Shown here piece after piece: positions 7,812 through 61,676 of a stretch of DNA of 64,000 bases (position 1 is the first letter of the stretch; every line of letters starts with the position of its first letter). The stretch lies in contig NZ_JPWI01000008.1 in NCBI RefSeq assembly GCF_003326795.1, positions 62,001 through 126,000 of the forward strand, in the 5' to 3' direction. This DNA comes from Thalassospira profundimaris (GTDB lineage: Bacteria > Pseudomonadota > Alphaproteobacteria > Rhodospirillales > Thalassospiraceae). The notes under the pieces were generated by a model. It was not told the DNA's origin. It made no database searches and saw only the letters and a program-made list of their open reading frames with translations. The position numbers and the translations under genes are program-made.

Positions 7812-8660
7812 ATGAAGTTTCAGGGTACGGAGAATTACGTCGCAACCGAAGATCTGATGGTGGCCGTTAATGCCGCGATCACGTTGCAGCGTCCGCTTTT
7901 GGTCAAGGGGGAACCGGGAACCGGCAAAACCGTTCTGGCCGAAGAAATCGCCAAATCCCTTGGCAAAAAACTGATCACATGGTCGATCAAATCGACCACC
8001 CGCGCCCAGCAGGGGCTGTATGAATATGATGCGGTGTCGCGTCTGCGCGATAGTCAGCTGGGTGACGAGCGCGTCCATGACATTGGCAATTACATCGTCA
8101 AGGGCAAGCTGTGGGAAGCATTCGAGGCCGAAGAAGATGCGCCGGTTCTTCTGATTGACGAGATCGACAAGGCAGATATCGAATTCCCCAACGATCTGTT
8201 GCAGGAACTCGATCGCATGGAATTCTTTGTCTATGAGACGCAGGAAACCATCAAGGCAACCAACCGGCCGATCGTCATCATCACATCAAATAATGAAAAG
8301 GAATTGCCCGACGCGTTTTTGCGCCGCTGTTTCTTCCATTACATCCGTTTCCCCGATGCCGATACCATGGCCGAAATCATCGAGGTCCATTATCCCGGTA
8401 TCCAGAAACGTCTGGTCGCCGAGGCATTGAACCTTTTCTATGACATTCGCGATGTATCCGGGCTCAAGAAGAAGCCGTCAACGTCCGAGCTTCTCGATTG
8501 GTTGAAGCTTCTGATGGCCGAGGATCTTTCACCAGAGGCCCTTCGCGCCAAGGATGCCAAAACCGCCGTGCCGCCATTGCATGGTGCGTTGCTCAAGAAC
8601 GAGCAGGATGTGCACCTGTTTGAACGGCTTGCATTCATGGCGCGCCGCGAAGGGCGTTAA
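7812..8660 (+). CDS. MoxR-family AAA+ ATPase
   Basis: A 282-aa AAA+ ATPase. Walker A GEPGTGKT is at about residues 37-44, and Walker B LLIDEIDKAD at about 114-123. The arginine-finger segment PDAFLRRCFFHYIRFPD follows. MoxR proteins act as chaperones for metal-cofactor insertion or complex assembly together with a von Willebrand A protein. Here the partner is the next gene, five bases downstream. No CO dehydrogenase or methanol dehydrogenase genes lie in view, so the client enzyme is unknown. Confidence 0.9.
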   Translation: MKFQGTENYVATEDLMVAVNAAITLQRPLLVKGEPGTGKTVLAEEIAKSLGKKLITWSIKSTTRAQQGLYEYDAVSRLRDSQLGDERVHDIGNYIVKGKLWEAFEAEEDAPVLLIDEIDKADIEFPNDLLQELDRMEFFVYETQETIKATNRPIVIITSNNEKELPDAFLRRCFFHYIRFPDADTMAEIIEVHYPGIQKRLVAEALNLFYDIRDVSGLKKKPSTSELLDWLKLLMAEDLSPEALRAKDAKTAVPPLHGALLKNEQDVHLFERLAFMARREGR

Positions 8661-8665
8661 GCATT

Positions 8666-9853
8666 ATGTTCACCGGCTTTTTCTATAAGCTAAAGGATAT
8701 GCGCATTCCCGTTTCATTACGGGAATACCTGACGCTGCTTGAGGCGGTGGAAAAGGGGCTGGCGGGGTATTCGGTCGAGGATTTTTATTATCTGGCGCGA
8801 TCCGCACTGGTGAAGGACGAACGCCACCTTGATAAGTTCGACCGGGTGTTTTCCGAACATTTCAAGGGTGTGGTCAATCTGGCCGATGGCATGGACGAGG
8901 TTGCCGAAACCGAAATCCCCGAAGAATGGTTGCGCAAGCTTGCCGAGAAATTCCTGACGGACGAGGAAAAAGCCGAAATCGAAGCGCTTGGCGGCTGGGA
9001 AAAGCTGATGGAGACGCTCAAACAGCGTCTGGAAGAACAAAAGGGCCGTCATCAGGGCGGCAATAAATGGATCGGAACGGCGGGGACATCACCGTTCGGC
9101 GCCTATGGCTATAACCCGGAAGGCGTACGCATCGGGCAACATGAATCGCGTCATCGGCGCGCGGTCAAGGTCTGGGACAAACGCGAATTCAAGAATCTTG
9201 ATGACAATGTCGAGATCGGAACGCGCAACATCAAGGTCGCACTGCGTCGTTTGCGCAAATGGGCGCGCACCGGGGCCGCCGATGAGCTTGATCTACCCGG
9301 CACCATTACATCAACCGCGCGGCAAGGCTGGCTTGATGTGCAAATGCGCCCGGAACGCCATAACGCGGTCAAGGTCTTGATGCTGTTTGATGTTGGCGGA
9401 TCAATGGATGATCACATCAAGGTCTGCGAAGAACTGTTTTCGGCGGTCAAAACCGAGTTCAAGCATCTTGAATATTATTACTTCCACAATTGCCCGTACG
9501 AGGGATTGTGGAAGGACAATGCGCGGCGCTGGAACGAACAGGTTTCCACTTGGGATGTGATCAATACCTATGGGGCGGATTACAAGCTGGTGATTGTGGG
9601 CGATGCCACCATGAGCCCCTATGAAATCACCTATCCCGGTGGTGCGGTGGAGCACTGGAACCAGGAGGCCGGGGCTGTGTGGATGCAGCGCCTTGTCGAT
9701 CATTTCCATCATGCCGCCTGGATAAACCCGCAGCCGGAAAACTGGTGGCGGCATCACCAGTCAATCCAGATCATGCATAAACTGATGGAAGGCCGGATGT
9801 TTCCTTTGACGCTGGATGGTCTTGATCGCATGACCGGGGAACTTAACCGCTAG
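8666..9853 (+). CDS. CoxE-like VWA-domain protein
   Basis: A 395-aa protein of the CoxE-like von Willebrand A group. The C-terminal VWA domain starts at about residue 230 with VLMLFDVGGSMDDHI. This is the metal-ion-dependent adhesion site, in which the first Ser of the classical DxSxS motif is replaced by Gly. The helical N-terminal half has charged stretches (EEWLRKLAEKFLTDEEKAEIEALGGWEKL). It follows the MoxR ATPase by five bases, so the two form the usual MoxR-VWA chaperone pair. Their target is not evident from the neighbourhood. Confidence 0.85.
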   Translation: MFTGFFYKLKDMRIPVSLREYLTLLEAVEKGLAGYSVEDFYYLARSALVKDERHLDKFDRVFSEHFKGVVNLADGMDEVAETEIPEEWLRKLAEKFLTDEEKAEIEALGGWEKLMETLKQRLEEQKGRHQGGNKWIGTAGTSPFGAYGYNPEGVRIGQHESRHRRAVKVWDKREFKNLDDNVEIGTRNIKVALRRLRKWARTGAADELDLPGTITSTARQGWLDVQMRPERHNAVKVLMLFDVGGSMDDHIKVCEELFSAVKTEFKHLEYYYFHNCPYEGLWKDNARRWNEQVSTWDVINTYGADYKLVIVGDATMSPYEITYPGGAVEHWNQEAGAVWMQRLVDHFHHAAWINPQPENWWRHHQSIQIMHKLMEGRMFPLTLDGLDRMTGELNR

Positions 9854-60743: not shown

Positions 60744-61496
60744 TTACTCGGCCGCGCTGGTAACGCTGGTGGCGCTTTCGCTATTTGCCAGCTGACGTGC
60801 ACGATGTTCGGCACGGGCCTGTTTCCAGTAATCGCGATCGACATAAACGGTCGGGTCCTTGACGCGCGCCAGTTCAAGCGCCTCGCGCCGCTCGACACAG
60901 GTGCCGCACCGTCCGCAATGGGTTTCCCCGCCCTTGTAGCATGACCAGGTCAGATCAACCGGCACGCCAAGGCGACCGGCCTCAAGCGCGATGTCGGCCT
61001 TGGAGACATTCACAAACGGGGTATAAAGCTTGACGTCCCTGACCCCTTCAAGCGCATGGTCCTGCATGGCCTGAAACGATTTGATGAAATCGGGGCGGCA
61101 ATCGGGATAGATGAAATGATCCCCGCCATGAACGGCTGCTGCAACCGCGTCGGCACCGGCACTGGCGGCCGCACCAAAGGCAACCGCAAGCATGATGGCA
61201 TTGCGGTTGGGCACCACAGTCACGCGCATGGTTTCTTCGGCGTAATGGCCATCGGGCACATCGACATCATCAGAAGTCAGCGACGATCCGGTCAAAAGCG
61301 CCCCCACCGGGGTCAGATCAACAATGTGATGTTTGACGCCAAGATCGCGTGCCGTGCGCGCAGCGAAATCGAGTTCCTTTTTATGGCGCTGGCCATAATC
61401 GAACGAAATCAGGGAATGGAGCTTGTGCTCGGCTGCAACCTTATAGGCCAGCGTGACGGAATCGAGCCCGCCAGAGCAGACGACAATCGTCTTCAT
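60744..61496 (-). CDS. queC: 7-cyano-7-deazaguanine synthase
   Basis: A 250-aa ATP-dependent enzyme that forms preQ0 from 7-carboxy-7-deazaguanine (EC 6.3.4.20). The PP-loop CSGGLDSVTLAYK is at the N-terminus and the zinc site CYKGGETHCGRCGTC near the C-terminus. I use the ATG at 61496 (MKTIVVCSGG); an ATG two codons earlier is possible. A preQ1-like RNA element lies just upstream. A REP-like repeat separates it from queD. Confidence 0.96.
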   Translation of the reverse strand: MKTIVVCSGGLDSVTLAYKVAAEHKLHSLISFDYGQRHKKELDFAARTARDLGVKHHIVDLTPVGALLTGSSLTSDDVDVPDGHYAEETMRVTVVPNRNAIMLAVAFGAAASAGADAVAAAVHGGDHFIYPDCRPDFIKSFQAMQDHALEGVRDVKLYTPFVNVSKADIALEAGRLGVPVDLTWSCYKGGETHCGRCGTCVERREALELARVKDPTVYVDRDYWKQARAEHRARQLANSESATSVTSAAE

Positions 61497-61509
61497 AATC
61501 ATATGTCTT

Positions 61510-61539
61510 TCGTGTTTTTAACCTGGTGCTACGACAGGG
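61510..61539 (-). promoter_or_regulatory. Candidate preQ1-I-type riboswitch
   Basis: The minus-strand leader reads CCCTGTCGTAGCAC then CAGGTTAAAAACACGA. CCTG/CAGG form stem P1. The loop UCGU can pair with the tail ACGA as the pseudoknot P2, across an A-rich linker. A loop C lies just before the 3' strand of P1, where the preQ1-pairing C sits in known class I aptamers. The tail merges with GAAAG before queC, so ligand binding could hide the ribosome-binding site. The fit is close but P1 has only four pairs. Confidence 0.5.
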
Positions 61540-61676
61540 AAGCGAACATCGCTTCAGGGCGGGCATTTGCCACGCTGTGCTTCAAAAGGCAAGCAAAAAT
61601 CCACGCATGCAACCATGCGTTACGCGCAGGAATGCTGTGATTTTTATACAATCAGGCGGTAACGGGAATGCGCATC

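Follow-up and report, generated by a model that had tools for sequence, protein, structure and literature searches.

In the type II preQ1 aptamer of Tte, CUGGGUCGCAGUAACCCCAGUUAACAAAACAAGG(G) in the accessible text of PMC10639078, the G5-C16 pair forms the floor of the ligand pocket and the C7-G11-C30 triple its ceiling, and an AC directly before the 3′ strand of P1 is the recognition mark of type II (PMC11625349). According to the accessible portions of the latter source, known class I members favor preQ1, and Tte prefers preQ1 over preQ0 only 17-fold. The structure of a type III member, the yhhQ leader of E. coli, has been solved (PMC10622847, accessible text). Pathways of 7-deazaguanine DNA modification in phages, involving FolE, QueD, QueE, QueC, and DpdA, have been described in PMC6884629, whose main text does not mention Cellulophaga and whose accessible passages contain no riboswitch on these genes. 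A literature search, on the text accessible to it, found no report of phage copies of the element described here.

The window, that is, the whole 64,000-nt stretch of Thalassospira DNA that was analyzed, carries queC, queD, and queE on its minus strand. A preliminary description of this DNA had proposed that the queC leader can fold as a short H-type pseudoknot, and all the parts named there, a 4-bp P1, a loop, an A-rich linker, and a tail able to pair back, were indeed found in the leader. The features are listed below; the bit score of the element refers to model R2, which was built from the wider family of elements.

61511..61538, minus strand: complete aptamer-like element, from P1 and its loop through the A-rich L3 to the tail CACG; R2 match of 40.0 bits
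61535..61538, minus strand: P1 5′ strand CCUG, partner of 61522-61525
61526..61534, minus strand: loop UCGUAGCAC, 9 nt, sequence as read
61522..61525, minus strand: P1 3′ strand CAGG with AC just before it, AC being a mark of types II and III (PMC11625349, accessible text)
61515..61521, minus strand: L3 UUAAAAA, 7 nt, a length also found in 98 of 115 viral matches before pathway genes
61511..61514, minus strand: tail CACG, candidate P2 3′ strand with possible pairing to the loop
61539..61555, minus strand: extra hairpin GAAGCGA-UGU-UCGCUUC abutting P1 (evaluated on 15 leaders out of 29, of which 13 are distinct)
60744..61502, minus strand: queC, TIGR00364 at 184.7 bits, above cut-off; PF06508
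60233..60589, minus strand: queD, TIGR03367 above cut-off; PF01242
59454..60314, minus strand: queE, open reading frame as listed, the true start probably lying further in; TIGR03365 above cut-off

Read along the minus strand from 61538 to 61511, the element is CCUG UCGUAGCAC CAGG UUAAAAA CACG, followed by AAAGACAUAUGAUUAUG. Candidate pairs between tail and loop are G61529-C61514 and CGU 61533-61531 with ACG 61513-61511. Because several relatives lack the ATG at 61502 in the leader comparison, the conserved queC start is probably ATG 61496, and the ACG end of the window's element lies 14 nt from it. A clear Shine-Dalgarno sequence was absent, only a weak Shine-Dalgarno-like GAAAGA being seen by eye, so that the earlier statement that the tail runs into the ribosome-binding region held mainly by position. 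The predicted fold of the window element alone was unremarkable (-3.1 kcal/mol, z +0.86), with 161 of 200 shuffles folding equally well or better, and the element pattern, allowing up to three mismatches, matched the window once versus 0.02 matches expected.

The extra hairpin at 61555-61539 is a feature of the clade of the window. Evaluated on 15 of the 29 genus leaders, 13 of them distinct, it showed 92.3% pairing, and three of its seven pairs had two-sided changes; inspection by eye found it absent from the same place in the divergent genus leaders L023-L028. Its role is perhaps coaxial stacking or mRNA protection. Between the upstream methyltransferase-like open reading frame and the queC leader, a terminator-like hairpin followed by a T-rich stretch occurs at 61603-61620 on the minus strand; it probably terminates the gene upstream, but terminator-like sites in the window were no commoner than in shuffles (2 found versus 1.7 expected).

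Within Thalassospira, the genus of the window, QueC was present in all 29 genomes, the element stood directly before queC in each of them, and model R2 found exactly one copy per genome (29/29), the genome G004 with a split queC being represented by leader L030 with L029 left aside. The linkage of the element to queC in the genus has its counterpart in phages, where the linked genes are folE, queD, and queE. In the alignment of the 29 genus leaders, 27 of the 28 element positions were invariant (mean conservation 0.994); the flanks were less conserved, the three blocks upstream averaging 0.718, 0.709, and 0.571 and the 14 nt that follow 0.739, and positions 1, 2, and 3 of the first 30 codons of queC in the same genomes gave 0.94, 0.97, and 0.84. 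All 29 queC leaders had the same P1, the same C in the loop, and the same combination of loop G and tail C, as predicted for a genuine element; equally invariant was the C directly 5′ of the P1 3′ strand; every leader further had an A-rich L3 and then a tail C able to pair with the loop G. This conservation within the genus places the element above a chance fold. As P1 never varies in the genus, covariation was sought outside it. Two irregularities of the queC genes themselves were observed: queC of G004 (L029, L030) is split into two overlapping-frame pieces by a frameshift or a sequencing error, with the element intact, and for L024 and L026 (genomes G019 and G011) the genome search reported one internal stop each (TGA and TAA, respectively) in the frame around the queC match.

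Rfam searched at the gathering score gave no match over the window, and RF00522, whose gathering score is 39 bits, had none in the window or in the whole genome. A search of 351 bases at E≤10 returned two unrelated weak matches, with RF00522 absent. The covariance-model check suggested at the outset thus turned out negative at all these levels, and RF00522 found no match in the phage leaders L064 and L208 either. The model did match the B. subtilis element, but at thresholds as lenient as E≤10 RF00522 (Rfam 15) did not find the type III leader of yhhQ in E. coli. When aligned to a genome match, the RF00522 consensus has UC before P1; since UC at this place is the type I mark, the consensus looks type I. 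Given the missed yhhQ leader and this type I appearance, the silence of RF00522 constitutes weak evidence against the element.

Compared with type I (RF00522), the element has the same short H-type pseudoknot layout, and some phage variants carry UUCG-A in the loop; in type I, however, UC takes the place of AC ahead of the P1 3′ strand and the loop is longer, and RF00522 does not match the element. The type III yhhQ leader shares with the element a 9-nt loop (UUCCCUCAC by eye), the AC before the P1 3′ strand, and its being missed by Rfam, but its loop is pyrimidine-rich, UU follows P1, and it pairs with AAGG, whereas here the loop is UCGUAGCAC, the tail is ACACG, and AAGG is absent. With type II (Tte and Bsu), the likeness comprises the loop letters UCG-N-AG, the AC before the P1 3′ strand, the closing G-C, the A-rich L3, and two members of the ceiling triple, the G in the loop and the C in the tail; the window element has each of the Tte letters, namely the G-C floor, the C/G/C ceiling, and the AC. 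By our alignment with the Tte sequence as given in the accessible text, U61534, C61533, G61529, and C61526 would correspond to Tte U6, C7, G11, and C15. The element, set apart from type II here by the Tte and Bsu sequences rather than by a full type II alignment, differs in having a loop of 9 nt versus 10 (Tte) and 12 (Bsu), a P1 of 4 instead of 5 bp, and an L3 of usually 7 nt, in that the Tte P2 pairs are not conserved, and in lacking a clear Shine-Dalgarno sequence. A natural loop variant in phage leader L208, UCGCAGUAC, lacks only a single A relative to UCGCAGUAAC, the loop of Tte. Taken across its members, the compact variant combines a P1 of four pairs, with G-C as the closing one, with a 9-nt loop U-C-G-N-A-G-N-A-C, an A-rich L3 usually of 7 nt, and a tail C-A. 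The preliminary description had correctly counted four pairs in P1, but its view of them as one pair short is not upheld as a defect, four pairs being usual for the variant.

We consider it likely that the element is a compact class I preQ1-type riboswitch, closest to type II, with a 9-nt loop, a 4-bp P1, and a minimal P2. The AC before the P1 3′ strand, the UCG-AG loop letters, and the G/C ceiling, all as in Tte in the accessible sources, together with the UC in the RF00522 consensus, would also suit an ordinary type II riboswitch that falls within the published consensus (521 sequences) and is hidden only since the Rfam model looks type I; with a loop one nucleotide short of Tte and three short of Bsu, a 4-bp P1, and a P2 that is not conserved, we judge this reading possible but on the doubtful side.

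P1 was evaluated on 27 distinct elements, of which 25 came from phages and two from the genus. Standard pairs made up 98.1% of P1 in these elements; shuffles averaged 70.7% (sd 3.2), and sliding the strands gave no more than 59.3%. Two-sided changes occurred in 3 of the 4 pairs, that at the second pair coming from the two genus rows alone, and the outermost pair was A-U, U-A, G-C, or C-G. The closing G-C was present in 27/27 elements, its letters having been fixed beforehand in two viral scans, and the specificity C before the P1 3′ strand in 27/27 rows, of which the viral part is not independent because this letter had been specified both in the regex and in the patterns of the viral scans; some letters of L3 and of the tail had been specified there as well. 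P1 is a genuine helix. For P2, up to three further pairs are possible beside the G-C in the genus, where they are invariant, and in the folE leaders of phages CA was mostly followed by AA or AT, without ACG. No covariation in support of P2 was found, and loop position 9 changed without a partner change in phage leaders. Beyond one G-C pair, P2 is not conserved in the wider family. The covariation anticipated for both helices was accordingly seen for P1, across the phage relatives, and not for P2.

The phage copies came from several scans of IMG/VR, the counts of which take in near-identical contigs. The pattern TCGTAGCACNNNNTNAAAAACACG, in which P1 was left unspecified, matched 19 stretches; P1 was AGUG/CACU in all of them, and an ATG lay 2-4 nt past the ACG. 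A gene for a protein of 61-92 amino acids with a hydrophobic C-terminal half was present in 18 of these, the 19th being cut by the locus end, and two of the 19 loci had weaker second matches upstream of folE. The folE version of the pattern gave 50 stretches, 48 with four P1 pairs, placed before folE in 46 cases, before queD and before a small membrane protein in one case each, and before neither kind of gene in two; the same pattern reversed gave 5 viral stretches. In the third scan, 91 stretches with 92 matches were obtained (86 with four P1 pairs), of which 67 preceded a small membrane protein, 10 folE, 3 queE, and 2 queD, and 10 none of these. A relaxed-gap pattern returned 33 viral stretches, 14 of them new; L080-L082 were clear members, L083 was weak (E 0.015, P1 formed partly via G-U) and was left aside, and the 10 others, which look like chance, were rejected. 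A two-nucleotide loop pattern found 11 viral stretches, covered by the regex scan alone.

The regex script was run over 2.27 Mb of fetched viral loci and yielded 140 distinct motif matches, 117 of them P1-paired. Pairing was found in 112 of the 115 matches that preceded a gene for FolE, QueD, QueE, or the small membrane protein (the three exceptions include the second register of L272) and in 5 of 25 elsewhere, a difference for which Fisher's test gave p ~1.6e-17, only indicative because the phages are related. Motif copies before other phage genes were seen in L184 at about 9653-9678 (+), P1-paired with loop UCGGAGCAC, and in L126 at about 8333-8358 (+), with P1 incompletely paired; the genes encode 197 and 192 amino acids, respectively.

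Loci were also chosen by protein, 80 for folE and 80 for queD, each set being the best 80 of about 550 relatives and hence biased to phages resembling the source of the query. The element was found in 32 of 79 readable phage folE leaders, or 25 of 60 distinct leaders, among these best 80, and immediately before queD in 3 of the best 80 queD loci. Of 78 queD loci with at least 400 nt upstream, 27 had a paired copy within 600 nt, and 24 of those 27 copies sat before the small membrane-protein gene. The loop variants UUGAAGCAC, UCGAAGCAC, and UUCGAAGCAC occurred in these folE and queD loci, and the CA of the tail ended 3-12 nt before the ATG in phages. Many protein-chosen queD loci had no element, and neither did many of the folE loci, among them the close relatives L238 and L240. 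On the reversed sequences of the protein-chosen loci, 8 motif matches with none paired were obtained, versus 90 matches with 86 paired on the real ones.

The ordinary single-sequence folding energy and the silence of Rfam are what a chance hairpin would give. Conservation, covariation, and linkage to particular genes speak against it, as do the reversed pattern (5 viral stretches versus 50) and the reversed sequences without paired matches; a chance fold, which we hold to be extremely improbable, was therefore rejected. The element in the queC leader is real. A conserved hairpin with an A-rich tail by start codons could also be an operator, bound by a regulatory protein at the RNA or the DNA level with no riboswitch involved, and a DNA dyad would show compensating changes too. 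In the family, however, the letters of P1 vary freely while loop and tail stay constant, which would be unusual for a DNA dyad, and a bacterium shares the element with phages unrelated to one another, in every case pointing toward the gene. We regard a protein site as quite improbable. The reading as a preQ1-I-like riboswitch with which the preliminary description began is thus supported by conservation, P1 covariation, and gene linkage, ligand binding being predicted from these.

The best named relatives of the phage folE protein were those of Flavobacterium phage immuto and the Cellulophaga phages phiST, phi13:1, and phi19:2. Immuto (NC_055915, Baltic Sea mesocosm) is an isolate that carries the element, which ends 7 nt upstream of the annotated folE start. 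Its annotation names QueD, QueE, FolE, DpdA, and QueF; Pfam matched its proteins above cut-offs for QueD, radical SAM, FolE, and QueF, and NCBIfam named its QueD, radical SAM, FolE, and QueF proteins below its cut-offs, while the DpdA-annotated protein had no family match in Pfam or NCBIfam. Cellulophaga phage phi13:1 has queD, queE, and folE, and no convincing element was found in 24.6 kb of it (best E 0.5). In 12 long phage records, picked for having the element and bearing one or two copies each, all 12 encoded a DpdA-like protein (73-100% identical to immuto DpdA) together with a QueC-family protein. The element-bearing phages thus have the same pathway genes as those described for 7-deazaguanine DNA modification. 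Judging by the named isolates, the IMG/VR phages apparently have hosts of the Bacteroidota type.

The protein of 61-92 amino acids was seen under the same element in L061-L082 and others, for example in L071 just after 9068 (+). Its gene is often followed directly by queD. The protein belonged to no clear Pfam or PHROG family, one variant giving weak sub-threshold matches (best E 0.057), and it had no match among named phages. It is a candidate membrane protein of 7-deazaguanine metabolism.

Outside the genus, an order-level scan with up to two mismatches matched 37 of 317 genomes, the 29 of the genus and 8 others. Seven of these eight, leaving out G294, were rejected, as P1 was unpaired (0-2 pairs from the closing end). 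An exact pattern was run over 84,980 species and gave 2 matches, neither with P1; since it does not allow G at one position of P1, the genus's own elements fall outside it. Model R1 matched 9 of 385 genomes of the class, two of the genus and seven weakly; the weak ones were discarded, six matching mainly by the A-rich tail and one (L103) being a partial look-alike. In the same 385 genomes, model R2 matched the genus alone. In the phylum to which L095, a Prevotellaceae MAG, belongs, it matched none of 395 genomes, a search that had no positive control, and RF00522 matched 1 of 198 genomes. Among plasmids, the best named matches to QueC were from Sinorhizobium (69.6% identity), and a DNA search with the end of the window yielded short matches only. 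The element is common to one genus and to phages of apparently other hosts, and there may have been exchange between them; convergence of the genus and phage elements is a conceivable alternative. Our tentative reading, which we find plausible and would not press further, is that the element is a distinct minimal subtype, with a 4-bp P1, a 9-nt loop, and a P2 of hardly more than one G-C pair, used mainly by phages of Bacteroidota-type hosts to adjust their supply of 7-deazaguanine for DNA modification, exchanged with an ancestor of the genus, and now controlling queC.

As to mechanism, the linkage to queC, folE, queD, and queE supports a sensor of preQ1 or preQ0, and the element is probably a translational OFF switch for one of these. 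By analogy with Tte, preQ1 (or preQ0) would stack on P1, where the C that closes the loop (61526) and the first loop U (61534) would recognize it, beneath a ceiling formed, like C7-G11-C30, by 61533, 61529, and 61514. Once the ligand is bound, the tail would be held in a pseudoknot whose end lies 14 nt from the conserved start of queC, within the ribosome footprint, so that plentiful product would lower the translation of queC, and perhaps of queD and queE. Phages with 7-deazaguanine genes would use the same element on folE, queD, queE, and the small membrane-protein gene. We infer the ligand, the pseudoknot, the OFF direction, and the translational level, and the OFF reading follows from the position near the start, in the phages and in the window, and from known class I behavior. 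The fold may be right and the ligand preQ0 or another 7-deazaguanine rather than preQ1, as the controlled genes queC, folE, queD, and queE lead to preQ0 and Tte prefers preQ1 by just 17-fold (PMC11625349, accessible text). Considering that known class I members favor preQ1 in the same text and that phage immuto encodes a QueF-family protein, we think this unlikely.

The element, if a riboswitch as preferred here, is among the smallest candidate aptamers and is invisible to the current Rfam model. That preQ1-I annotation by Rfam alone is incomplete follows from the missed yhhQ leader. The element also offers a concrete test set, with an isolate known by name, controlled genes of four kinds, and loops that vary naturally. 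The gene of the small membrane protein, being under the same switch, would be a candidate member of the 7-deazaguanine pathway. If the reading is true, phages with apparent 7-deazaguanine DNA modification would control the supply of the modified base via a metabolite-sensing RNA, and a DNA-camouflage pathway would be tied to riboswitch control.
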